Positions 408 to 11,990 of a stretch of DNA of 64,000 nt are shown piece by piece. Source of the stretch: Ignavibacteriota bacterium (lineage in GTDB: Bacteria > Bacteroidota > Ignavibacteria > Tepidaquicellales > Tepidaquicellaceae); the NCBI GenBank assembly GCA_016218085.1, contig JACREY010000011.1, positions 62,001 to 126,000 on the forward strand, in the 5' to 3' direction. The notes beneath the pieces are model-generated. The model worked only from the letters and a program-made list of their open reading frames with translations. It searched no databases and was not told the origin of the DNA. The translations under genes and the position numbers were made by a program. How positions within the stretch are numbered: the first letter of the stretch is position 1; every line of letters begins with the position of its first letter.

Positions 408-1349
408 TCAGGAATTGACTTTATTAATCTTGTACGTATAACTTTCACCGCTTGTTTCAGCTGATTCTCTTGTTGATGATATGTATTGCCCGCAGTTGCT
501 GCCTATCCTGTTTTCTTCGAGTTCCCCGATGCTGACCAGTGTCTCGTATCCGTGTAAATTTAGCTTTTCAATAAGCCCAAACTTTTCTATTCCCGGCCTT
601 ATGTATGATTTGTAATTATTCCTTATTACCTTTGCAGTCGGATTTAGCGGTGTGAATTTCAAAAGGAAAATTTCGGGATTGAAATATTTTTCCAGCACAT
701 CCGCTTCCACGGGACTGCTTTCCTCGAGCGCAAAATTCAGAGTGATTTTCTTCCCGCCCTTCCCGTAAAATCTTTCGGAGTAATCCGCAATTTCCCCAAA
801 ACTCCATTTTTTTACTGGAATCATTTCGTCCCGCCTTTTCCTGTCCGTTGTGTGAAGCGAAAACTGCAGTTGGAAATTTTCAGGGTATAAACTGTTTTTA
901 ATATCAAGCAGTTTTTCGAAAAAATTTTCCGCTCCCTTCGGAGCTATTGTCGAAACAGACGGAATAAAATTCTCCGTTTCATACCTTTCGTAAAATTTCC
1001 CCAGCACCTCCAGGACAGCAGGATTGAAAGACGGCTCGCCAATCCTTGCAAATTGAATCTTGAATTTTTCTGTCCTTATTTTCCTGTCGGGAAATTTTCC
1101 GGAAACTATATAATCTATCTGTGAAAAAATTTCTTCTACGGAAAGTTTTTTTCTAAAACTGCCGCCTGCATCGCAGAACGTGCAGTCTACCGGGCACCCG
1201 CATAATGTGGATACTATTAAAACCCATTTTTTTTCTAACGGAAGCGGAGGCTGAATTGACTCCACAAACTCGATTACCCCGCCGTTTTCGAGTTCGGCTA
1301 TGTAAACCGTTGCAATATCTTCCGTCCCTGCTTTGGCTCTAATTTTCAT
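408..1349 (-). CDS. RlmN/Cfr-like radical SAM protein, short form
   Basis: 313 residues. The radical SAM cluster motif is CPVDCTFC (C52, C56, C59), and the C-terminal SNCGQ (C286) corresponds to the methyl-carrying cysteine in the RlmN/Cfr 'ACGQL' motif. RlmN methylates C2 of A2503 in 23S rRNA and certain tRNAs. Two things are odd. The N-terminal accessory domain of RlmN (about 90 residues) is largely missing. Also, the residue seven positions before the first cluster cysteine, which is C118 in E. coli RlmN and is needed to resolve the RNA-enzyme adduct, is isoleucine here (I45); an extra cysteine, C50, sits two residues before the cluster. It therefore probably acts on another substrate or by a modified mechanism. 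It overlaps the flavoprotein gene by 11 bases, so the two are probably translated together. Confidence 0.8.
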   Translation of the reverse strand: MKIRAKAGTEDIATVYIAELENGGVIEFVESIQPPLPLEKKWVLIVSTLCGCPVDCTFCDAGGSFRKKLSVEEIFSQIDYIVSGKFPDRKIRTEKFKIQFARIGEPSFNPAVLEVLGKFYERYETENFIPSVSTIAPKGAENFFEKLLDIKNSLYPENFQLQFSLHTTDRKRRDEMIPVKKWSFGEIADYSERFYGKGGKKITLNFALEESSPVEADVLEKYFNPEIFLLKFTPLNPTAKVIRNNYKSYIRPGIEKFGLIEKLNLHGYETLVSIGELEENRIGSNCGQYISSTRESAETSGESYTYKINKVNS

Positions 1350-2217
1350 TTTTTATTTTTCCGTATATCTCCATCGCCGTGCGTATTCCGTCCCCGATGC
1401 TTATTGCCGCCTGGCGGTAAATTTTGTTTTTAACATCCCCGGCAAAATACAAAGAATTTTTTCTTAATGCGTTATATTCTTTTTTGCTTATGCTTTTTAA
1501 AAAATCAGCCTGGGGCTCCCTGCCAACCGCCGCTATCAATATATCCGATATAAAAATCTTTTTGCGCCCGCTTATTATGCAGTGTATAAGTACCCTGTCT
1601 CCCGATTCTACAACCTTTATCGTTTCAGCATTTCTGTTAATAGTAATGTTTTCTGATTTCCGGACTTTTTTTAGCAGTGCGGGAATGCACGAAGGAGAAC
1701 CGCCGCGCATCAGAATGTTAATTTTGTTATCCCTCCCTGCAAGATTGTATGCATAGTCAAAAGCCGCATCACCTCCGCCTATTATCGCTATCGCTTTGTT
1801 TTTTGTTTCCCTAAGTTCGTGAACTTCATAGTAGAAGTTTTTCTTCAGCAATCCAGAGGGCTCGTATTCAATTGGTTTTGTGCCTGTGGCTATAACAACA
1901 CGGCGGGATAATAAAATATTTTTTTTCGTAATGACACTGTAAATATTTTTTTTGTGTTTTACGTCAATTACTCTTTCCTTTCTTGCTTTTATCCCGTATG
2001 CATTTAAGTGCTTCTTAAAAAGACTGATAAGTGATTTACCGCTAATGCCATTCGGGAAACCGGGAAAGTTTTCTACCAGGAATGCATTTCTTAACAAACC
2101 CCCTTCTTCATCTTTTTCAAGCAGTAAAAAATCGAGACCGTATCTTTTAAGCTGAATTGCCGCCGCAATGCCCGCAGGACCCGCACCTATAATTATAACG
2201 TCAAATATTTTATCCAT
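1339..2217 (-). CDS. Thioredoxin-reductase-like FAD/NAD(P) oxidoreductase without CxxC
   Basis: 292 residues. The N-terminal FAD-binding motif is GAGPAGIAAA, followed by the ENFPGFPNGISG segment typical of thioredoxin reductases, then a second Rossmann motif GGGDAAFDYA and the C-terminal AGDV FAD contact. Where thioredoxin reductase has CATC just before the second Rossmann motif, this protein has YYEVHELRE, so it cannot reduce thioredoxin by the usual disulfide. Such CxxC-less relatives are often ferredoxin/flavodoxin-NADP reductases or act on other partners. Its gene lies between the isochorismatase-like gene (8-base overlap) and the radical SAM gene (11-base overlap). A plausible but unproven role is supplying electrons to that radical SAM enzyme. 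Confidence 0.8.
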   Translation of the reverse strand: MDKIFDVIIIGAGPAGIAAAIQLKRYGLDFLLLEKDEEGGLLRNAFLVENFPGFPNGISGKSLISLFKKHLNAYGIKARKERVIDVKHKKNIYSVITKKNILLSRRVVIATGTKPIEYEPSGLLKKNFYYEVHELRETKNKAIAIIGGGDAAFDYAYNLAGRDNKINILMRGGSPSCIPALLKKVRKSENITINRNAETIKVVESGDRVLIHCIISGRKKIFISDILIAAVGREPQADFLKSISKKEYNALRKNSLYFAGDVKNKIYRQAAISIGDGIRTAMEIYGKIKNEN

Positions 2218-2860
2218 TCTTACCTGCCTGTTTTAGCAAATCCGGACACCTGGTAACGTGCGCAAAACCGTGTGAAAGATTTCTTGAAGCCGACAAATGA
2301 AATTCTTCGTCGTATGTTGCCGTGCAGTCAACGGGAAAGAATACCTCAAACCCCCTCACAAATGCTGCCCGCGCTGTCGTCTCGCAGCAAAGATGCGCCG
2401 CAACCCCCGTGATTACAACGCTTTTCACCTGCTGTGATTTCAGGTAATCCTCAAGCTCCGTTTTATAAAAAGCATCGTACTGTGTTTTTATTATTATCTT
2501 TGCGCCGTGCGTGTCGAGTTTTTTCGTTAAACCGCTGTAATTTTCTTCCGTGATTATATCGCTCCACCATTCGGAAAGCATCCCTGCGTTTTCCTTTGTA
2601 TTGATGTGACGGGTGAATATTACAGGACGATTATTTTTCCTGAAAACCGAAATCAGTGACGAAATATCCTCAACTATGGATTCCGATGCGGGAATGTACG
2701 CGTGGGAATTTTTATTTAAAAAATATTCCTGCATATCGGTCACTATCAGGGCTGACTGCCGGATGTTGAAATTTATTTTTCGGTAATCAGGACACGGATA
2801 AATTTTTTTCAGAAATTCTTCCGTCTTTTTTTCTTTGTCTGCTAAATAGTTTTTTCTCAT
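2210..2860 (-). CDS. Isochorismatase-like cysteine hydrolase
   Basis: 216 residues, the usual size for the family. The catalytic triad is visible: aspartate in LIVTDMQEYF (D42), lysine near position 125 (IIIKTQYD), and cysteine in GVAAHLCCET (C158). Members hydrolyse amides or vinyl ethers (nicotinamidase, isochorismatase, N-carbamoylsarcosine amidase and others); the substrate cannot be read from the sequence. The protein has an N-terminal extension of about 30 residues and no signal peptide, so it should be cytoplasmic. The start overlaps the HIT gene stop by 4 bases (ATGA type) and its end overlaps the flavoprotein start, placing it inside a four-gene operon. Confidence 0.85.
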   Translation of the reverse strand: MRKNYLADKEKKTEEFLKKIYPCPDYRKINFNIRQSALIVTDMQEYFLNKNSHAYIPASESIVEDISSLISVFRKNNRPVIFTRHINTKENAGMLSEWWSDIITEENYSGLTKKLDTHGAKIIIKTQYDAFYKTELEDYLKSQQVKSVVITGVAAHLCCETTARAAFVRGFEVFFPVDCTATYDEEFHLSASRNLSHGFAHVTRCPDLLKQAGKNG

Positions 2861-3222
2861 TCGCTGAAAAGCTTCGACGCCATGTTTTCTATTGAAAAAT
2901 TCCCGCCAGACTTGCCTGAGTAACGCGGAATAATGTGAATGTGTGCGTGCAAAACACTCTGCCCGGCTATGCGGTTAATGTTAAGCCCTACATTGTAACC
3001 GCCGGGATTGTACCGCTCCTGAAGTATTACCTTCAGCTCGCTCACAAGGTCCCAGCAGGCAATTTTTTGCTCGCGCTTCAGGTCAAAATAGTTTTCTGTG
3101 TGAACCTTAGGTATCACAAGCGAATGCCCTTTTGACACGGGATGAATATCCCCGATGGCAAATGCAAGCTCTGATTCGGTAATGAATTTCTCCGCCGGTA
3201 TTTTGCAAAAAGGACAATCCAT
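2857..3222 (-). CDS. HIT-family hydrolase
   Basis: 121 residues. The histidine triad is HAHIHII, followed by PRYSG, and the N-terminus carries CPFCK as in HINT/Fhit-like bacterial HIT proteins. Family members hydrolyse nucleoside phosphoramidates or dinucleoside polyphosphates. It is the first gene of the minus-strand operon HIT, isochorismatase, flavoprotein, radical SAM, joined to the next gene by a 4-base overlap. The start ATG at 3220-3222 gives the expected N-terminus just before the zinc-ligand-like cysteines. No clear Shine-Dalgarno sequence precedes it, which is normal for this group of bacteria. Confidence 0.9.
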   Translation of the reverse strand: MDCPFCKIPAEKFITESELAFAIGDIHPVSKGHSLVIPKVHTENYFDLKREQKIACWDLVSELKVILQERYNPGGYNVGLNINRIAGQSVLHAHIHIIPRYSGKSGGNFSIENMASKLFSE

Positions 3223-3290: not shown

Positions 3291-3316
3291 AAATCCCTGC
3301 CTTCAGGCAGGGATTT
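3291..3316 (-). terminator. Hairpin terminator after the six-gene operon
   Basis: A perfect 11-base stem (AAATCCCTGCC / GGCAGGGATTT) with a 4-base loop lies about 70 bases after the stop of the last operon gene (3386). In minus-strand reading it is followed by a short T-rich run (CTTCTT), so it is a reasonable but not ideal intrinsic terminator. Confidence 0.6.
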
Positions 3317-3385: not shown

Positions 3386-4039
3386 TTACTTTTTATTCAG
3401 CAGTGCGAGACCTTCGAGTGCTGATGCGTTGTCAGGACTGATAAGAAGAACCCTTCTGAAAAGAATCTCCGCTTCCTTTGACTTTCCGAGCTGGAAATTC
3501 GTCCACGCAAACATCAGTTCGGAGTCGCCGTCAAAAGGATACAATGTCACAACCTTTTCGAAATATTTGTATGCATTTTGGTAATCTGCCTTGTAATAAT
3601 ATCCCAGCCCCGTGTAATAATTTGCCTTCGTATTGTTCGGATCTATCGCAAGAATGTCCGCATACAGCGCATATACCTTTTCCCATTTTTCCTGTGCCGA
3701 AAGCGGATAAACCAGCCCGAACTTTGCTTCAATTGATTTTGGCATAAGTGATACTGCTTTTCCGTAGTAGTTCACGGACTCGTCATACTGCTTGTTGGCA
3801 TAATAAAGCCAGCCGAGTCTTAGGTTTATTTCATATAATTTTTCATCGTAAACTTTCTTCAGCACTTCTATTGCACTGCCGTAGTCACTCTTGGTTTCGT
3901 ATGAATAACTTTCCTTAAATGCTTTCTGCAAGTCTTCGCCGGGTCCCAAATCCGTACTGCTCCTTGCGCTTATCTGAAAAAGCACGATTATGATTAGGGC
4001 AAAGAATACAAGTCTTTTTGATTTCATCAGAATGTCCAT
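3386..4039 (-). CDS. Secreted TPR protein, last gene of PqqD/ATP-grasp operon
   Basis: 217 residues. An N-terminal hydrophobic segment (LVFFALIIIVLFQIS) gives a signal peptide or membrane anchor, so the protein should act in the periplasm. The rest is tetratricopeptide repeats: about four to five helix pairs with the W/Y-LG-YY-A-Y-A-Y-KA-P pattern, for example near residues 80-110, 115-145, 148-180 and 182-215. TPRs bind peptides or proteins. The gene overlaps the upstream TPR/barrel gene by 13 bases, so it is translationally coupled to it and probably forms a complex with it. M5 would be an alternative start with a more usual signal peptide. Confidence 0.8.
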   Translation of the reverse strand: MDILMKSKRLVFFALIIIVLFQISARSSTDLGPGEDLQKAFKESYSYETKSDYGSAIEVLKKVYDEKLYEINLRLGWLYYANKQYDESVNYYGKAVSLMPKSIEAKFGLVYPLSAQEKWEKVYALYADILAIDPNNTKANYYTGLGYYYKADYQNAYKYFEKVVTLYPFDGDSELMFAWTNFQLGKSKEAEILFRRVLLISPDNASALEGLALLNKK

Positions 4040-5376
4040 TTTATACCTCCGATTATTTTATGGTTATTGTTTTTTGTAAAAATTGTAGTGTATTGGTCTG
4101 CATTACTATATAATAAAGTGGGAATTTCCTCGTTGTAATACTGGTATCGCAGGGACAGCTCTATGCTGCTGCTCACCGGGGAAATAAGGTTAAACGAAAT
4201 CCTGTCTGAATATTTGTTAATATTGTTAAATACTATGTATGCATCGCTTTCGTTGAAATTGTAAATCTGCCCGAATGTGTATCCCGCCTCCATCCACAGG
4301 TAATCAAATGTCTTCCAGCCTATTTTCTGGTCAACTATTCCGAAACTTTTATACTTTCCCATCGCTCCCTTGCTCGAAAAAACAGTTGCGTCAGTGACTG
4401 TGTATAGGTTCAGGTTGCCGAACGGGTAAAAAATTATTTCCGCTGTATTCTGTATCTGCTTTCCTCCGTTCAGGTTGGAAAAGGAATTTTTTAAACCGAA
4501 TCGGAAATGCCCGGCGCTCTTCGCAAGAGAAAGAAAATATACGTAATTATTAATTGTCGAGCTCGTTTCGGTAAATATTGGTCCTGGCGGATTTGCAATA
4601 TTGTCATATTCAAGATATATATTTTTGAATTTCACTCTTAACAGGTGAAAGGCGGGTGCAAGGTTCCATCCGCTCCCCAAATTAATATTTACATTCAGGT
4701 AATATTCATCCTGTACCGCTTTTGTGTCGAAATTCATCATTCCCTGAAAAAGCCCGGTAAGTTGCTCCGATTTGTTTACGGATATGTTATTGTAACCGTG
4801 GAATATTTTAACGTCCCTTCCAAGCTGGTGCATTAAATTTAAGCTGATGTAACTCCCGTCTTTTGTAAGACTCTGCTGATTGTAGTTCACAGGAAGGTTT
4901 TTGTTTATTGCGCTTTTTTGCCTGTCGTAATCCGAATTTGCCGTATAACCCCCCTCGGCGTATGCTCCGTAAATGAACTTGCTCTGTACGCCAAGCTTCT
5001 TCTTCAGCTTCTTCGGCATGTCATAAATCAGCGCCAGCACATCGCCTTCCCTTCCCGAAAAAAGATAAGAGTAATAAAGATATTCCTTTGCCGTAATATC
5101 CGTGCTGCTTAATTCAAGCGCCTTCTCGAAGTGAGGTATTGCCGACATGTAATCTTCCCTGCTGTAATATGCAATTCCTATCCTCATTCTCAGAAAGAAG
5201 AAATCTATATTATTTTCAATTGCAGCTTCTCCCTGTGTGATAAGCTCGTCCCATTTTGCGGCATTATACAGCGCAAAGGTTTTTGTATCGACTTCCTGCT
5301 GAGTCAGTCTCTGCTGCGAAAATAAAGATGATACCGCGAAAAGAATGAAAGCTAATGTTATTGCTGTCTTATGCAC
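4027..5376 (-). CDS. TPR plus outer-membrane beta-barrel protein
   Basis: 449 residues. Signal peptide (MHKTAITLAFILFAVSSLFSQ, cleaved near residue 21), then about 100 residues of TPR-like helices, then about 300 residues of alternating aromatic and polar strands ending in a terminal phenylalanine (GGIKWTF), as expected for an outer-membrane barrel recognised by the BAM machinery. Architecture and context (overlap of 19 bases with the urea-transporter/M23 gene and 13 bases with the TPR gene) suggest an outer-membrane component of a transport or export system. I do not recognise a named family for the barrel. Confidence 0.7.
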   Translation of the reverse strand: MHKTAITLAFILFAVSSLFSQQRLTQQEVDTKTFALYNAAKWDELITQGEAAIENNIDFFFLRMRIGIAYYSREDYMSAIPHFEKALELSSTDITAKEYLYYSYLFSGREGDVLALIYDMPKKLKKKLGVQSKFIYGAYAEGGYTANSDYDRQKSAINKNLPVNYNQQSLTKDGSYISLNLMHQLGRDVKIFHGYNNISVNKSEQLTGLFQGMMNFDTKAVQDEYYLNVNINLGSGWNLAPAFHLLRVKFKNIYLEYDNIANPPGPIFTETSSTINNYVYFLSLAKSAGHFRFGLKNSFSNLNGGKQIQNTAEIIFYPFGNLNLYTVTDATVFSSKGAMGKYKSFGIVDQKIGWKTFDYLWMEAGYTFGQIYNFNESDAYIVFNNINKYSDRISFNLISPVSSSIELSLRYQYYNEEIPTLLYSNADQYTTIFTKNNNHKIIGGIKWTF

Positions 5377-7544
5377 GTTGCTTTTATTTTTTTGTTTTTT
5401 AAAAATATGTTTATGGTCTCGATTCCCTCTTTGCTGATTTCAATCTTAAAGTTTTTCCTTCCCGTTTGCTTTCCGAAAAATGATTTATCCGCTGACGAAT
5501 TCAGAATCAAATAAGACGGATTTATTACTTCATCTATCTCGCCGTACTGCAGTGTGTAATCGGATTTCAGAAATACAAAGAATGGAGCTATGAAATCCTG
5601 AACGAATAAGCCCGGCTTGCTGTATGTAAAGTTCAGGGCAAATGTGTCCTTCACCGCTACGTCTTTGTAAAAACCAAGCGGTACCTTGTATGCCGCAAGG
5701 AAGAAGTAATAAAGCAGGGAGCGCTTGCTTCCGACGAAATTGTAAAAGTAAAAATTTCTCCCGTCCTCGGAAAAGTATGCGTATGAATTCGATGCCCTGC
5801 AGTATATATATAAATAATTATATATGTTCGTGTAAACTTCCCATTCAATCTTTTTTACCTTTCCTTTTTTTTCGACTTCGAAAGAAATCTTTCCTCCCGG
5901 AATGAAATGGAATGCTTTTTTCATGAGCGGATTGATTTCCACGTTGGATATTATATCGCCCTCTTCCGGAATCGAATATGACCTGTATTCATAACCGCTC
6001 CCCGCTTTCTTCATATACTGTGAAACAGGGTAGTCTATCGTAGCACCGTCCACGAAAGGTACTCCCTGAAGCTGGAAGTGTATGTGCGGCTCCGGAGAGC
6101 GCCCGGAGTTTCCGCAGAATGCAATTACCTGCCCCGCCCTTACCCATTCACCTTTCATCACCTTGAATGAACCCGCTTTTATGTGAGAAATTTTCGAATA
6201 GAAGCCTTCGCCGTGCCTTATCACTATCGTATTACCCCAGTTTTCCTCCACGTTTACATCCCCTATTTCATTGTCGGGTATGCCGTCGATAATCTCATCG
6301 ACGTAACCGTCGTAAGGGGAAAGGATTGCCTTGTTGTAACAGTAATAATCCCCGGGGCTTGCTCCGTAATTCCGGAAAGTTTTTCCCTCCGAATCCGTAA
6401 TCACAAAATCCCAGGCATTTCTCCATTTTGATTTATGCGTCAGCGCACCGTCGTGACCCTGCGACACTTTCCACTCCCCGTAAAACGGAAGCCTTATCGG
6501 ATAAACCGAATAATCCCTGAACCTGTGATTGCTGTTGAGATACATATAAAGGTTCAGCTCCGGAGAGTTCCGCTGAATCTTCACTTCGAGTGACTTGGAT
6601 GAATTGTAAACCCTTAACCTGTATGCGTAAAGAAAAAGAAGAACTATAATATTGAACGGAAGAGAATAAATGTATATGTGCCATACTCCGAATATCCTGC
6701 TGAGACTTAAAGTCAGAAGCACTACGGCAGGCGTTAGTATCACAGCCCAGAAATAAGACAGCCTCGAAGGAACAAGGAAATATCCCCCGATTGCAATTCC
6801 GGTCAATATGTAATTAAATCCTATATAAGAAAAACTCTGCTCCGTGAAATTTGCGCCCATTAACTGGTAAAAGAAATAAGCAGAATAAAAACCTATCAGC
6901 GAAAGCGAGAATGCAATCCTTGAATAATAAAGCAGCGCAAGGGATATCAGCACTCCGGGTAATACCTGGTACTGGAAAAAAATTGCGCCCAGAGAAAGAA
7001 AATATGTTCTCAGCGAAGTAATAAATTCAAACTGGTCCCACCATTCGTAAACGCTTATAAGCCTGTTGCCTCCAATGACAAAAAGTTCTTTTATGAAAAA
7101 CACTCCCTGCTCGCTCAGAGACAGGAAATGAAGCTCCCTTATCGCAAGAAGCATGAACCAGAAAGGAATCAGAAAAGGCAGGCTCAAAAAAGGCAGGTTG
7201 TTTTTACCAAGCGTGTTTTCAAGCGTTATTGTTATCAGAAGAGTAAGATAAGATGCAATAAGAACTATAATAACCACAAGCCAATCTGGCTGCAGATTCA
7301 ACCCGATACCCAGCCCCACAAGAAGTGCGTTGAAGCCGTAATACCCTTTCTCTGTCCTGTACCTGTCATAGCCGAGCAAATCCGAAAGCACCGAAGAAAA
7401 TATCACAGCAAGCACTCCGCAAAACCCTGCAAATACATTCAGAAAGGATACAAGTATAAGAACCGAGGCAAACAAATACCTGTCCGAAAAGAAAATTATC
7501 GAATAACTGTTAAATATGCTCCTTATGTACTGTTTTAATGTCAC
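5358..7544 (-). CDS. Urea-transporter-like membrane domain fused to M23 peptidase
   Basis: 728 residues. Residues 1 to about 320 are a full urea transporter (UT) domain: it opens LKQYIRSIFNSYSIIFFSD, has the YGFNALLVGLGIG element, and two LPF signatures (LPFLSLPFLIPFW and a second-half SLPFN). Residues about 360-500 form an M23/LytM-type metallopeptidase: histidine in THKSKW with the paired aspartate in NAWDF, and EPHIHFQLQ for the H-x-H zinc site. About 220 beta-rich residues follow. The peptidase is expected on the periplasmic side, where M23 enzymes cut peptidoglycan peptides. The family size for UT alone is about 330, so this is a genuine fusion. Gene spacing is 3 bases after the decarboxylase stop. 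Confidence 0.85.
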   Translation of the reverse strand: MTLKQYIRSIFNSYSIIFFSDRYLFASVLILVSFLNVFAGFCGVLAVIFSSVLSDLLGYDRYRTEKGYYGFNALLVGLGIGLNLQPDWLVVIIVLIASYLTLLITITLENTLGKNNLPFLSLPFLIPFWFMLLAIRELHFLSLSEQGVFFIKELFVIGGNRLISVYEWWDQFEFITSLRTYFLSLGAIFFQYQVLPGVLISLALLYYSRIAFSLSLIGFYSAYFFYQLMGANFTEQSFSYIGFNYILTGIAIGGYFLVPSRLSYFWAVILTPAVVLLTLSLSRIFGVWHIYIYSLPFNIIVLLFLYAYRLRVYNSSKSLEVKIQRNSPELNLYMYLNSNHRFRDYSVYPIRLPFYGEWKVSQGHDGALTHKSKWRNAWDFVITDSEGKTFRNYGASPGDYYCYNKAILSPYDGYVDEIIDGIPDNEIGDVNVEENWGNTIVIRHGEGFYSKISHIKAGSFKVMKGEWVRAGQVIAFCGNSGRSPEPHIHFQLQGVPFVDGATIDYPVSQYMKKAGSGYEYRSYSIPEEGDIISNVEINPLMKKAFHFIPGGKISFEVEKKGKVKKIEWEVYTNIYNYLYIYCRASNSYAYFSEDGRNFYFYNFVGSKRSLLYYFFLAAYKVPLGFYKDVAVKDTFALNFTYSKPGLFVQDFIAPFFVFLKSDYTLQYGEIDEVINPSYLILNSSADKSFFGKQTGRKNFKIEISKEGIETINIFLKNKKIKATCIRQQ

Positions 7545-7547
7545 TGT

Positions 7548-8903
7548 TTATTTTTTTAAGAATAAATGTTCGGGAATTTTTTCAAGCCCGGTAATGTCGC
7601 TGTTGGATTCGTTGTTCCGGATTATGTGAACCTGACCACGCTTGTCTATCATCACTACCTTCGGTCTTAATGTTATGAACTGCATCCATTGAGTCATGTT
7701 GTATGCGCCTACCCTGCTGACAACTACCCGGTCTCCCTTTTTCATAGCCGGCAGATAAACAGATTCCCTTATCTGGTCAATATTCATGCAAAGCGGACCG
7801 TAAATGCTTGTCGTTTCCGAATGAGAAGAAAATTCCTGCGCCGGAGTGATTTTGTGCTCGTACCAGAATGAAGTGAATAAAATATTCACTCCGAAATCCA
7901 CTATCGTTGCATGCCTTCCGTCGGAAAGCTTCTTGTTCGCAAGCACCGTTCCCGCCAGATGACCCGCGTCATCTATCAGCGCCCTTCCCGTTTCAAGTAT
8001 CAGCATCGGCATTCTTTCCGGATCAAGCTGAGAATTAATCAGCGAAGTGGTTATAGCCTCTGCGTAGTCATCAAACGACGGGGATGTGTCTGTACCCAGC
8101 AAGTATGCTCCTTTCAGCGTGTTCTTCGATGCAAAGCCTCCGCCCATGTCTATGTAATTTAAATCGTGATTGTATTTCCTTTTCAGGTTTACCGCAAGGT
8201 CTGCAAGCTTTGTGGCGGCAATGCCGTAAGCACCTGCCGTCATCATAAACGTCCCTACGTGTGTATGAAGCCCTACCATGTCGAGCTTGTTGCTCATCAT
8301 AATTCTGTTTATCGCTTCCCACGCTTCTCCGTTTTCATAATTGAAACCGAACCTGTCCCACATCGGGTAAATTCCGGTATCCATATTGACACGGATGGCT
8401 ACCTTGGGCTTCTTCTTGTGCTTCGGGGCAATATCAATCAGCGTGTACATTTCATCGAAGTGGTCTATGTGAATCAGGGAACCGTTTTCTACTGCCAGAT
8501 TCAGGTCGTCTTCGGTTTTCTCGGGACCGTTGAATATAATCCTGTTCCCGTCCACACCAAGACTTAATGCCTTGTCGTATTCAAAACGCGATACCACTTC
8601 TGCCCAGGAACCTTCCTGGTGAAAAAGACTGCATACTGCGTTCAGATAATTTGTCTTGTATGACCAGGCAAACTGCACTTTCGGATACCTTGTTTCGAAT
8701 GCGCGCTTCGCTTCGGATATTGTACTGCGTATTGTCTTTTCCGAAAGTACAAACAGCGGCGAGCCGTATTCGGCAAGCAGGTCCTTCACAGGCACATCAT
8801 CTATGTGTGTGAATGCCTCAAATTCTGTCTTCAGACCGAACTTGTGTGACGGTCCTATATTTAGTTTTTTTATTAACGGTCTTTCGAAATTTAATTTCTT
8901 CAT
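7548..8903 (-). CDS. PLP-dependent decarboxylase, diaminopimelate/ornithine decarboxylase type
   Basis: 451 residues, fold type III (alanine-racemase barrel plus beta domain). The PLP lysine is K83 in FAWSYKTNYL; further signatures are HTHVGT, the glycine-rich MGGGF phosphate loop, ETGRAL, and YGPLCMNID with the catalytic-type cysteine near the C-terminal domain. The family decarboxylates basic or D-amino acids such as meso-diaminopimelate, lysine, ornithine or arginine. Because it is placed in an operon with ATP-grasp and PqqD-like genes and not with lysA partners, it more likely makes an amine or modifies an amino acid for a conjugate than serves lysine synthesis. Substrate unknown. Confidence 0.85.
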   Translation of the reverse strand: MKKLNFERPLIKKLNIGPSHKFGLKTEFEAFTHIDDVPVKDLLAEYGSPLFVLSEKTIRSTISEAKRAFETRYPKVQFAWSYKTNYLNAVCSLFHQEGSWAEVVSRFEYDKALSLGVDGNRIIFNGPEKTEDDLNLAVENGSLIHIDHFDEMYTLIDIAPKHKKKPKVAIRVNMDTGIYPMWDRFGFNYENGEAWEAINRIMMSNKLDMVGLHTHVGTFMMTAGAYGIAATKLADLAVNLKRKYNHDLNYIDMGGGFASKNTLKGAYLLGTDTSPSFDDYAEAITTSLINSQLDPERMPMLILETGRALIDDAGHLAGTVLANKKLSDGRHATIVDFGVNILFTSFWYEHKITPAQEFSSHSETTSIYGPLCMNIDQIRESVYLPAMKKGDRVVVSRVGAYNMTQWMQFITLRPKVVMIDKRGQVHIIRNNESNSDITGLEKIPEHLFLKK

Positions 8904-8915
8904 ATGATTTCATTT

Positions 8916-9962
8916 TTAAAGTTCTGCATTATGTGTTAGTTTCTCGAATTCCGATATGTCGCAGATTAACTCGTATGAATACCGGATGAAAAGCTTCCCG
9001 CTTTTAAATTTCCTGAAAGGTGCCGTCTCCATTCCAAGCGCCAGCTTTATAAGGGATTCGGGAAGATTCTGCCCGACACCTACTGCCAGGTAAACCCACG
9101 CGGGAAGACGAGGATTTATTTCTATCAGGTAATATTCGTTTTCCTCCGTCTTTATAAGCTCAAGCTCCATTCCGCCGCGCCATTTTGTTTTCTTTATAAG
9201 CTTCCTTGTCAGTGTGAGAAGCTCCCTGTCGTCTATGCTGATTCCTGCCCACGCTTTTCCCTTGTCCGTTATATACTGCTTCTTCATCGGCACCGCTCCT
9301 ATCGTGTTTCCCTGTCCGTCTCCGAGTGCAACTACATTGACCTCAGTCCCTTCGATAAATTCCTGTATAATAATGGGCAGCCCCCACTTGCCGCTTATCT
9401 TGTAATAGTACATCTTTGCCTGCTCGGGTGTGTGCACAATCTGCGCATCGTAATACTTTCCCTTTATAAGCAGCGGATACGAAAATTCATCCGTTACATT
9501 GTAAAGCTCTTTTTCGGAAAATACCGCCCTGCTGTTCGGTACCTTTACTTTGTACTTTTTTCCGAATTGAGGCAAGACTGCTTTCTGCCTCTCCTCGAAC
9601 TGCGATAATGCGGGCAGAAAAGTTTTTATACCCATCTTCTCCAGCTTGTCGGCGGATTTCATGAAAGTGTATAACTCCGCATCAAAATTCGGAATCAGTA
9701 CGTCTATCTTTTCCTTCTCATTTATATATTCAAGCCTCTTAAGCAAAATGTCCGAACCTGCCGTGGGATAAGGAATCTGATAGGATTTATTTACAAGGTC
9801 GTGCATGTAAATTCCCGGTTCAAGATTTTCGTAAGCAAGGCCTATTATCCTTGCATCAAAAATTTTTGATTCGAGTATTCCTCTTATAACAGGAATGCCC
9901 GGTCCCGGATTGTCTGTGTTATTCAGCCCCGTCAGGGCAACAGTGATTTTCTTTTTCTTCAT
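8916..9962 (-). CDS. ATP-grasp ligase
   Basis: 348 residues. An N-terminal pre-ATP-grasp Rossmann-like domain (residues 1 to about 110, PGPGIPVIRGI) is followed by an ATP-grasp domain with the ATP-binding lysine in LLIKGKYYD, the QEFIEGTEVNVV strand, and the metal-binding MELELIKT and EINPRLPAW segments, resembling the carbamoyl-phosphate synthase/PylC branch. Such enzymes join a carboxylate to an amine or thiol using ATP via an acyl phosphate. The gene shares one base with the stop of the PqqD-like gene (TAATG) and ends 12 bases before the decarboxylase, so the three are co-translated. A model in which it ligates the decarboxylase product is inference. Confidence 0.85.
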   Translation of the reverse strand: MKKKKITVALTGLNNTDNPGPGIPVIRGILESKIFDARIIGLAYENLEPGIYMHDLVNKSYQIPYPTAGSDILLKRLEYINEKEKIDVLIPNFDAELYTFMKSADKLEKMGIKTFLPALSQFEERQKAVLPQFGKKYKVKVPNSRAVFSEKELYNVTDEFSYPLLIKGKYYDAQIVHTPEQAKMYYYKISGKWGLPIIIQEFIEGTEVNVVALGDGQGNTIGAVPMKKQYITDKGKAWAGISIDDRELLTLTRKLIKKTKWRGGMELELIKTEENEYYLIEINPRLPAWVYLAVGVGQNLPESLIKLALGMETAPFRKFKSGKLFIRYSYELICDISEFEKLTHNAEL

Positions 9963-10204
9963 TAATCTTCTGCGATGTTAAGCTTTTTTAAGGTTTCTAT
10001 GAATTCATCATAACTTTTGTTCAGAATCGATTTGCTTACATCATACTTTTCAAAAAGGGCATTTTTTATCTCCTCCTCGCTCATTTCCTTTTTCAGCATG
10101 TCCAAAATTTCCGTAGCTATCGGATTCATCGAATATGAATCACCTGATGCCGGATTAAAAATAAATCCAGTTTCGCTGACTGCAATTTTTTTGTTTATTT
10201 TCAT
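9962..10204 (-). CDS. PqqD-like peptide-binding protein
   Basis: 80 residues, the usual size for PqqD-family proteins. The pattern (N-terminal strands, ISETGFIFNPASGDSYSMN, then ATEILDMLKKEMSEEEI and a C-terminal helix FIETLKKLNI) is the winged-helix PqqD/RRE layout with the 'N-x-TA/ATEIL' element. PqqD and related RiPP recognition elements hold a peptide substrate for modifying enzymes; relatives in other clusters accompany ATP-grasp or HprK-like enzymes. It is the first gene of the six-gene operon. No short precursor peptide gene is evident nearby in the 260 bases upstream, so the peptide, if any, may be encoded elsewhere. Confidence 0.7.
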   Translation of the reverse strand: MKINKKIAVSETGFIFNPASGDSYSMNPIATEILDMLKKEMSEEEIKNALFEKYDVSKSILNKSYDEFIETLKKLNIAED

Positions 10205-10404
10205 AGCTTTATTTTTAATTTGAATACTTTCTATTAGTCAAGTCTTATATTATAGACAATTATCGGACCAAAAATGTTTACTCTTCTACCTGCATTTTTG
10301 CAATCTTTTACAATAATTTACAAATTATGATTCGACAAAAATGACGAATTAACCCGGTTTTAACCGAATTTGACGTGCTTTTTAATTCTTTTAATTATAG
10401 ATAC
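10205..10404. promoter_or_regulatory. Upstream region of the PqqD/ATP-grasp operon
   Basis: About 200 bases of AT-rich non-coding DNA between the operon start (10204) and the terminator at 10405-10446. It must hold the operon promoter. A small dyad CGGTT-TT-AACCG lies at about 10354-10366. On the minus strand TTGACT occurs about 40 bases before the first ATG, but no convincing matching -10 element follows at the right distance, so I do not assign a promoter. Confidence 0.35.
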
Positions 10405-10446
10405 AAAAAAAAACAGTAAATAATTACTTATTTACTGTTTTTTTTT
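10405..10446. terminator. Bidirectional intrinsic terminator
   Basis: A perfect 19-base stem, nine A then CAGTAAATAA paired with TTATTTACTG then nine T, with a TTAC loop. It follows the Spy-like gene on the minus strand (stop at 10465) and has U-runs in both directions. Confidence 0.85.
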
Positions 10447-10464
10447 AAACCGGATTTCTAATAC

Positions 10465-11028
10465 CTATCGGGGGGGCGGTCCTTTTGGACCCATCTTTTT
10501 TGTTATATCTTTCAACAATAAATCAAATTTCTCTTTCTGCTTTTCATCGCAAATCTCCCTTACGCTTTTAAAATGCCTGAAAGATAGCAGCTGGAGCTCC
10601 TTTTGCTTCGCTGATGACAGTGCGGCATATTCTTCGGCTTTCTTCTCATCTCCGCCTGACTTTATCAGTTCCATCATATCATCCATTGACTTGTGCATCT
10701 CGTCTATTAATTTTCTCGATGATTCAAAATGCTCGTCTCTGAGCTTCGCAAATTTCTCGCCCTGCTCGGGTGTGAATCTGAGCTCTTCGGCAAGAAACAT
10801 CTTTCCGTCCATTTGCATATGTTCACCCGGAGGATGCTGCATTCCGGGAGGCTGCATTCCGGGGTGCTGCATTCCGGGGTGCTGCATTCCGGGAGGCATG
10901 TGACTCCCGATTAAAGGAGGCTTTCCGCAGGATCTCATCAGCCACATCGAACCTACTGAAGCTACGTTCAGTACGATTAATACCGCAAGTACTATGTAAA
11001 GAACTCTGTTTTTGGTTGTCGGTTCCAT
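10465..11028 (-). CDS. Spy/CpxP-like periplasmic protein with GMQHP repeats
   Basis: The ATG at 11026-11028 (MEPTTKNRVLY...) is preferred over the upstream in-frame ATG at 11082, because the latter would lie inside the preceding gene. The product is about 187 residues: an N-terminal membrane anchor (VLYIVLAVLIVLNVASVGSMWL), a methionine/histidine/proline-rich linker with tandem GMQHP-type pentads (10840-10903 in DNA), and a helical region (LRFTPEQGEKFAKLRDEHF ... RHFKSVREICDEKQKEKF) with the LTPEQ-like pattern of Spy/CpxP/CnrX metal-sensor proteins. Met/His-rich linkers often bind copper or other metals. It is the third gene of a sigma/anti-sigma operon and is probably the periplasmic sensor or stress chaperone of that system. 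Confidence 0.75.
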   Translation of the reverse strand: MEPTTKNRVLYIVLAVLIVLNVASVGSMWLMRSCGKPPLIGSHMPPGMQHPGMQHPGMQPPGMQHPPGEHMQMDGKMFLAEELRFTPEQGEKFAKLRDEHFESSRKLIDEMHKSMDDMMELIKSGGDEKKAEEYAALSSAKQKELQLLSFRHFKSVREICDEKQKEKFDLLLKDITKKMGPKGPPPR

Positions 11029-11038
11029 AAAAGTTTTT

Positions 11039-11380
11039 TTAATAAAAATAAAAATTGTTTGTTGATGAATATTCGGATGCAAGAGAATTTATCTGCGCCT
11101 GCCTTACGCTGTCAGATGCATTTGTGACGGCGGATACAACTGCCCCGTCGTAAATATTATTACTCTGTATGGAAAACAGTGTCGCAAGGTTTGCAAAGAA
11201 ACAGATAATCACTGTGACAAAGGCAAGCCTGAAATTAAATTTCCTGCTTTCCCTTTCCGGCTCGTTTATTCCGTTCAGAATTTTATTGAATAAATATGGA
11301 TTCACGTCGGCCTTTTTGATGCCGTTCAGCACCTGAAGCGTTTTTTCTGTCTCGTTTTCTATTAAATTTTTCTTTTCCAT
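11039..11380 (-). CDS. Single-span membrane protein, anti-sigma factor candidate
   Basis: 113 residues: a cytoplasmic N-terminal helical part of about 50 residues, one transmembrane helix (LAFVTVIICFFANLATLF) and a short outer tail. Size, topology and position directly after an ECF sigma gene (43-base gap) are those of a small anti-sigma factor, although no zinc-binding HxxxCxxC motif is present. The outer tail probably meets the Spy-like protein encoded next. I infer the function from context, not from a family match. Confidence 0.6.
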   Translation of the reverse strand: MEKKNLIENETEKTLQVLNGIKKADVNPYLFNKILNGINEPERESRKFNFRLAFVTVIICFFANLATLFSIQSNNIYDGAVVSAVTNASDSVRQAQINSLASEYSSTNNFYFY

Positions 11381-11423
11381 CCTTCTTTTTCTTTAGATGT
11401 TACTTTTTATAAATACTTGCGGA

Positions 11424-11990
11424 TTAAATTTTATCATTATAATAATTATACAGTTCCTTTTTCAGATTTTCCTTTGCCCTGAAAATAAGCGACTCCACCG
11501 ACGAATGCGATACCTTCATTATTTCGCTGATTTCCTTATAACTTAAATGGTCTATCTTATTGAGTAAAAATGCCGTCTTCTGGTTTTCGGTAAGTTTGTC
11601 TATCGCTTTAAATAATATTTTTGCTCTGTCTTTGTTTTCCGCTATTATTCCGGGATGAAGAAAATCGGGCAGCTCTTCTGCTTCTTCCTTTGCGAAAATG
11701 GATTTTACTATAGCAAATCTTTTTTTTCTTTTTTTGCTTCGGATGAATTCAAGCGATTTGTTCACGGCAATTCTGTATATCCACGTGGAGAGACTCGAGT
11801 CGCGGTTGAAGTTTTTTATTGACCTGTGAATAAGAATGAATATTTCCTGTGTTATGTCTTCGGCATCTTCCGTGCTCTGCAAAAAACCAAGCGCAGTATT
11901 ATACACCCTCGAAGAAAATGTATCATACAATTCCCTGAATGCTGCCTCGTCATTTTCTATTATGCGGTCTATTAATTTATTTTCTTCCAA
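11424..11990 (-). CDS. ECF-type RNA polymerase sigma factor
   Basis: 188 residues. Region 2 is near residues 10-85 (FRELYDTFSSRVYNTAL ... DAEDITQEIFI ... STWIYRIAVN) and region 4 near 125-180 (LTENQKTAFLLNKIDHLSYKEI ... SVESLIFRAKENLKK), with a charged linker between. It directs RNA polymerase to promoters of an extracytoplasmic response. Together with the downstream anti-sigma candidate and the Met/His-rich Spy-like protein, the stimulus may be metal or envelope stress. The operon ends at the strong terminator at 10405-10446. Confidence 0.92.
   Translation of the reverse strand: MEENKLIDRIIENDEAAFRELYDTFSSRVYNTALGFLQSTEDAEDITQEIFILIHRSIKNFNRDSSLSTWIYRIAVNKSLEFIRSKKRKKRFAIVKSIFAKEEAEELPDFLHPGIIAENKDRAKILFKAIDKLTENQKTAFLLNKIDHLSYKEISEIMKVSHSSVESLIFRAKENLKKELYNYYNDKI

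Follow-up and report, generated by a model that had tools for sequence, protein, structure and literature searches.

The stretch of DNA analyzed here, hereafter the window, comprises 64,000 nucleotides from an Ignavibacteriota bacterium (GenBank assembly GCA_016218085.1, contig JACREY010000011.1, positions 62,001 to 126,000 of the forward strand) and carries on its minus strand, at 3386-10204, an operon of six open reading frames (ORFs) encoding, in order, a PqqD-like protein, an ATP-grasp ligase, a decarboxylase dependent on pyridoxal phosphate (PLP), a fusion of a urea transporter (UT) domain to an M23 peptidase, a TPR protein with a predicted beta-barrel, and a second TPR protein (Table 1). 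Both the ORFs and the spacings between them (-1, +12, +3, -19 and -13 bases) agree to the base with those reported in the initial annotation, which had been made from the sequence without database searches. Its domain assignments were confirmed by Pfam and NCBIfam for PqqD, ATP-grasp, decarboxylase, UT, M23 and TPR; the barrel it proposed is still a prediction, as Pfam returns a weak TPR match for that protein and no family for its barrel half. The hairpin 3' of the last gene probably marks the end of the operon.

Table 1. Features of the six-gene operon, in coordinates of the window (aa, amino acids).
Feature	Position	Strand	Remarks
PqqD-like protein, 80 aa	9962..10204	-	PF05402 E=1.4e-10; small peptide-binding family
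ATP-grasp ligase, 348 aa	8916..9962	-	Pfam ATP-grasp; CPS-like/PRK12767-type subfamily
PLP decarboxylase, alanine-racemase fold, 451 aa	7548..8903	-	Pfam Orn_Arg_deC_N + Orn_DAP_Arg_deC
UT-M23 fusion, 728 aa	5358..7544	-	PF03253 E=3.1e-53 (181 bits); PF01551 E=1.1e-13
TPR + predicted outer-membrane beta-barrel, 449 aa, exported	4027..5376	-	Signal peptide, weak TPR match
TPR protein, 217 aa, exported	3386..4039	-	PF07719 E=4.9e-18; signal peptide, no lipobox
Terminator-like hairpin, 11 pairs, 3' of TPR gene	3291..3316	-	Symmetric stem; T-rich minus-strand tail

The six-gene set is a real conserved unit and not a chance neighborhood. In a sample of 296 genomes of the phylum, 36 have a match to the UT domain, and in 27 of these the match resides in the M23-fusion gene; the remaining nine, one of which has a weak UT match only, possess neither the fusion nor the operon set. 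A profile of the ATP-grasp protein retrieved the same 27 genomes (22 genera), with its gene side by side with the fusion gene, and none of the 269 others, so that the operon set occurs in about 9% of the sample. Over public genomes the ATP-grasp family extends to more than 550 matches, and 80 named public loci span Ignavibacteria, Bacteroidales, Flavobacteriales, Cyclobacteriaceae, Chlorobi and one Neomarinimicrobiota bin. When these and further loci, about 106 in all, were read individually, the order of the six genes was found to be kept, as were strand and close spacing (median intergenic gaps, in order, of -4, 21, 16.5, -13 and -13), and the proteins have correlated pairwise distance matrices (r = 0.61-0.89). 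The proposal that the genes act as one functional unit far beyond close relatives is upheld by these distributions.

PqqD, ATP-grasp and decarboxylase are present together in essentially all of the loci, and six-frame reading finds PqqD upstream of ATP-grasp at each of them: 14 loci that had seemed to lack it reflected an artefact of ORF picking, and all 14 copies were recovered in six frames. Where at least 7 kb of downstream sequence is available (74 loci), the decarboxylase occurs in 74, UT-M23 in 73, the TPR protein in 71 and the barrel in 59. Of the 15 loci that lack a barrel match, most come from the window's own class and encode in its place, 3' of the TPR gene, a TPR-free exported protein of about 275 aa.

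Individual loci depart from the common layout. An FG-GAP gene is inserted between PqqD and ATP-grasp in L042, and a gene resembling IF-2B (eIF2B-alpha/sugar isomerase) lies between decarboxylase and UT-M23 in L097, L118, L138 and L141. At L058:8944-11198 (G005) the UT-M23 fusion is read in two overlapping frames, and this copy may be frameshifted. Plasmid searches returned, with the ATP-grasp protein, one remote Streptomyces match (26%), in whose annotation the other operon genes were not evident, and, with the decarboxylase, none at 1e-60.

Residue positions in the decarboxylase were taken from alignment with solved relatives and counted over 102 members. Among solved structures its closest relative is N-citrylornithine decarboxylase of Francisella (7KH2; 196 bits), with diaminopimelate (DAP) decarboxylase at 129 bits and BtrK, also related, at 95 bits; it scores beneath the cut-offs of the curated profiles for both LysA (219 bits against 297.9) and FslC (231 bits against 500). 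K83, H213, G254-256, R307, C372, D376 and Y401 are invariant, and the requirements of the alanine racemase (AR) fold are present, namely the PLP lysine, active-site His, GGG motif, EXGR, catalytic Cys and Tyr. T344, W347, M373, I375 and Q405 are specific to the family. At the position of R343 of MjDAPDC, which contacts the DAP carboxylate (PMC7857480), 101 of the relatives have Thr and one has Ser, a change matching T327 of FigC, and the residue following the catalytic Cys is Met, like M355 of FigC. The two FigC residues that contact citrate, H357 and R387 (PMC7857480), are replaced throughout, by Ile375 and Gln405 (102/102 each). Judged by these alignments the enzyme forms a subfamily of its own, nearest to FslC/FigC. 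Taken together, Thr in place of the Arg that binds the DAP carboxylate, Met after the Cys and the loss of the citrate contacts suggest that its substrate is probably an amino acid that already carries a conjugate at its far end, though not citrate.

Two identities for the enzyme were rejected. A role in lysine synthesis, already discounted by the initial annotation, is excluded by the residue changes, by the score below the LysA cut-off and by a second decarboxylase of the strain, encoded on contig 8 (G000:C8) in the order asd-dapB-dapA-dapD-lysA, which keeps the DAP-binding Arg. Identity as an N-citrylornithine decarboxylase is excluded by the absence of H357 and R387 and by the score below the FslC cut-off.

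The ATP-grasp protein keeps K127, K167, E268, E281, N283 and R285 as invariant catalytic residues. Its AlphaFold model (predicted local distance difference test, pLDDT, 90.7) has 2PN1 as its nearest solved structure, and further fold neighbors include the L-amino acid ligase RizA (4WD3), many carboxylases and carbamoyl-phosphate synthase. Since carboxylases and RizA are among these neighbors, the predicted chemistry is ligation of a carboxylate or of bicarbonate, with amide formation the likeliest outcome. The PqqD-like protein resembles an ordinary member of its family, with C-termini that vary and lack a conserved tail; a LysW-like carrier, which requires a conserved acidic C-terminus to receive the amino acid, is excluded on this ground. 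The substrate or precursor ORF sought beside the operon was not encountered: in the 400 bases preceding PqqD, examined at 93 loci (204 small ORFs), no small ORF is conserved, and the clusters formed by small ORFs upstream of it mostly represent the ends of neighboring AraC, DUF2202 or type IX secretion system genes.

The fusion protein comprises a UT domain (residues ~7-307), an M23 domain (~355-495) and a C-terminal beta domain (~507-725). In its model (pLDDT 86.8) the UT part superimposes on dvUT with a template modeling (TM) score of 0.83-0.86, and both UT signature motifs are present. The fold and overall pore architecture are thus shared with UTs of the SLC14 type (dvUT, UT-A, UT-B), from which it differs in a larger central loop, in the appended M23 and beta domains and in the pore. 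Of the urea-filter and pore positions Q24, E187, T130 and T294 (PMC4357013), Gln24 is kept in 77 of 89 fusions (Ile in the window protein), Glu187 has become Ala in 72, and the filter threonines have become Ser in 85 (Thr130) and 67 (Thr294); the set used for comparison consisted of eight UTs taken as unfused, one of which (L009) is actually the broken fusion. A urease alpha gene was not found in the genome. With the altered pore, this makes ordinary urea uptake by the fusion improbable, in agreement with the initial annotation, which had discounted it.

The M23 active site is complete, with zinc and catalytic residues H370, D379, H454, H487 and H489 invariant, and its closest folds are mostly peptidoglycan hydrolases. 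It shares the full His/Asp/His/His/His set and the fold with M23/LytM endopeptidases such as ShyA, DipM and lysostaphin, and differs from them in its His-x8-Asp spacing (the usual spacing is His-x3-Asp), its attachment to a channel and its predicted location. The loop between the two UT halves is periplasmic (PMC4357013), and with five membrane helices per half this places both UT termini in the cytoplasm. Just beyond the last UT helix, R309 and R311 are basic in 84% and 92% of sequences, the segment after the UT part carries 6.6 K/R as opposed to a net negative central loop, and neither a hydrophobic segment nor a further transmembrane helix follows. From topology, charge pattern and the lack of a later helix together, the M23 domain is most likely cytoplasmic. 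We know of no earlier case of an M23 enzyme predicted to act in that compartment; this operon would be the first.

Signal peptides are found on both of the last two proteins, and a lipobox is absent as a rule (from all 85 members in the case of the TPR protein). The barrel of the 449-aa protein is predicted from its signal peptide, its TPR start and its sequence pattern. Signal peptides without a lipobox would suit transport to the outer membrane or through it, in a direction that we infer. The suggestion that the last three gene products move or process the product over both membranes is not upheld in its original form: the final two are exported proteins, but the M23 domain, which had been expected to face the periplasm, is predicted to lie in the cytoplasm.

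The reading that we favor, tentatively and at somewhat less than an even chance, is that the operon encodes a conserved synthesis-and-export system of Bacteroidota and related groups for a small decarboxylated conjugate. In a first step, suggested by family membership, the ATP-grasp enzyme, positioned by PqqD, would link, by an amide bond, an amino acid or other acid to an amine-bearing amino acid that is either free or attached to a protein or peptide whose gene lies elsewhere. The decarboxylase, for which the residues give support, would then strip the carboxyl group from the conjugated amino acid and leave an amine-ended product, much as FslC/FigC, SbnH, MccE and BtrK act on other conjugates. 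At the cytoplasmic face the M23 domain could hydrolyze an amide or peptide bond, thereby trimming or releasing the product, which would exit by the altered UT pore in the manner of an exporter fused to a peptidase; the TPR protein and the TPR-barrel protein may finally take it over the periplasm and outer membrane. The initial annotation had likewise proposed that the first three genes would make an amide or amine product, a proposal that the residue-level evidence strengthens.

Known systems resemble parts of this scheme. The rhizoferrin pathway of Francisella (FslA/FslC/FslB; FigA/FigC) likewise combines ATP-dependent amide synthesis, decarboxylation of the conjugate by an AR-fold enzyme, and export, but its ligase is an NRPS-independent siderophore (NIS) synthetase rather than an ATP-grasp enzyme, the citrate residues of FigC are absent here, and PqqD, UT, M23 and barrel are absent there, as that pathway is described (PMC7857480). 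The BtrI/BtrJ/BtrK set for the butirosin side chain shares with the operon a ligase, an AR-fold decarboxylase and a small protein partner. Its ligase, BtrJ, is an ATP-grasp enzyme. The small partner there, BtrI, belongs to the carrier proteins and is 87 aa long (PMC7857480), whereas the PqqD-like protein is not an acyl carrier, and a channel-peptidase fusion has no counterpart in that pathway. C39-ABC transporters are peptidase-containing exporters, and the logic proposed here, in which an export protein bears its own peptidase on the cytoplasmic side, is similar; the families are nonetheless unrelated, the fusion has no ATPase domain, and a leader-peptide substrate was not found.

Several points weigh against the proposed synthesis-and-export function. 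The fold neighbors of the ATP-grasp model, which include carboxylases and carbamoyl-phosphate synthase, would allow chemistry other than amide formation, and no conserved precursor ORF lies upstream that would account for PqqD's ligand. The cytoplasmic placement of the M23 domain is a prediction from topology rules, and the UT pore is too narrow to admit a large product. PqqD, ATP-grasp and decarboxylase occur at locus L063 with no channel gene, and as far as its contig extends L081 shows the same apparent arrangement.

We regard as doubtful a stronger form of this reading, in which the operon would represent an undescribed class of export machine whose cytoplasmic M23 domain, fused to a channel of UT fold, cuts and releases a decarboxylated conjugate presented by PqqD and made by the ATP-grasp enzyme, for exit through the TPR and barrel proteins. 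Rather unlikely is modification of a protein or ribosomally synthesized peptide (RiPP), in which PqqD would bind a peptide encoded elsewhere, the ATP-grasp enzyme would aminoacylate it, and decarboxylation, cleavage by M23 in the cytoplasm and export would follow: the constant presence of PqqD agrees with this, and a cytoplasmic M23 domain beside an export channel recalls a maturation peptidase fused to its exporter, but the 93 loci scanned upstream of PqqD offered no conserved small ORF, and the pore is narrow for a peptide.

A system acting on peptidoglycan peptides seems improbable. Here the decarboxylase would take the D-center carboxyl of DAP within a stem peptide, M23 would cut the stem or cross-bridge, the ATP-grasp enzyme, as a relative of D-Ala-D-Ala ligase, would re-ligate, and barrel, TPR and UT would move muropeptide fragments. 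Homology to LysA with loss of the residues that recognize DAP's free distal end is compatible with such a substrate, as are the complete M23 active site and its hydrolase-like fold; the predicted cytoplasmic location of M23 and a pore of UT size, ill-suited to muropeptides, speak against it, and the same residue changes occur in FigC, which is not a DAP enzyme (PMC7857480). We consider equally improbable a metallophore or metal-stress system in which ATP-grasp and decarboxylase would make a rhizoferrin-like chelator whose export through UT and barrel would be controlled by metal. The decarboxylase is nearest to the siderophore enzyme FslC, an AraC regulator with an HMA-like domain lies upstream of the operon in 25 loci (adjacent to PqqD in 20), and genes for an extracytoplasmic function (ECF) sigma factor, a likely anti-sigma factor and an LTXXQ/Metal_resist protein directly precede the operon in the window. 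Against this, the citrate-binding H357 and R387 of FigC are absent, the operon set includes no TonB-dependent receptor, many of the HMA-like domains lack the CxxC pair, and a motif scan near the loci turned up CusA-like pumps at just two and a CPC-type metal ATPase at none. Ordinary uptake of urea or a small amide tied to amino acid metabolism is hardly credible, for despite the close fit to dvUT and the retention of Gln24 in most relatives, no urease alpha gene was found in the genome, Glu187 is lost in the family (with Gln24 also lost in the window), and UT matches without M23 never accompany the operon genes.

No description of the gene set, and no paper joining a urea transporter with peptidase M23, was found in the open-licence literature, a limit that makes this absence weak evidence of novelty; the set is conserved and apparently undescribed. 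If the favored reading is correct, it would reveal a new route to amine-ended conjugates and the use of the UT fold for something other than urea.

Around the operon, Rfam matches at 10397-10630 all fell under their gathering scores, matches to sigma-70 promoters were no better than chance level, and PADLOC gave no match for the operon as a defense system. The same-strand genes upstream in the window (10465-11990) encode the ECF sigma factor-like protein (11424-11990), the likely anti-sigma factor (11039-11380) and the LTXXQ/Metal_resist protein (10465-11082), and a cassette akin to this one precedes the operon in L066. The HMA-like AraC regulator is exemplified by L139:4501-5094; in many of its copies the CxxC pair has degenerated. 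A DUF2202 protein is encoded upstream of PqqD in ten loci (L099 and nine others). These upstream genes hint, without specificity, at envelope or metal stress. In seven loci of the window's own class (L033, L035, L048, L049, L053, L055 and L057) a protein of at least about 280 aa is encoded directly 5' of PqqD, and in L042, of the same class, a similar protein stands between PqqD and ATP-grasp; the copy that was scanned (L035) carries FG-GAP repeats and a type IX secretion tail. Downstream of the operon, at 408-3222 of the window, four near-overlapping genes encode a divergent radical SAM protein resembling RlmN/Cfr (54 bits against a cut-off of 290), a thioredoxin-reductase-like flavoprotein, an isochorismatase-like hydrolase and a HIT protein.

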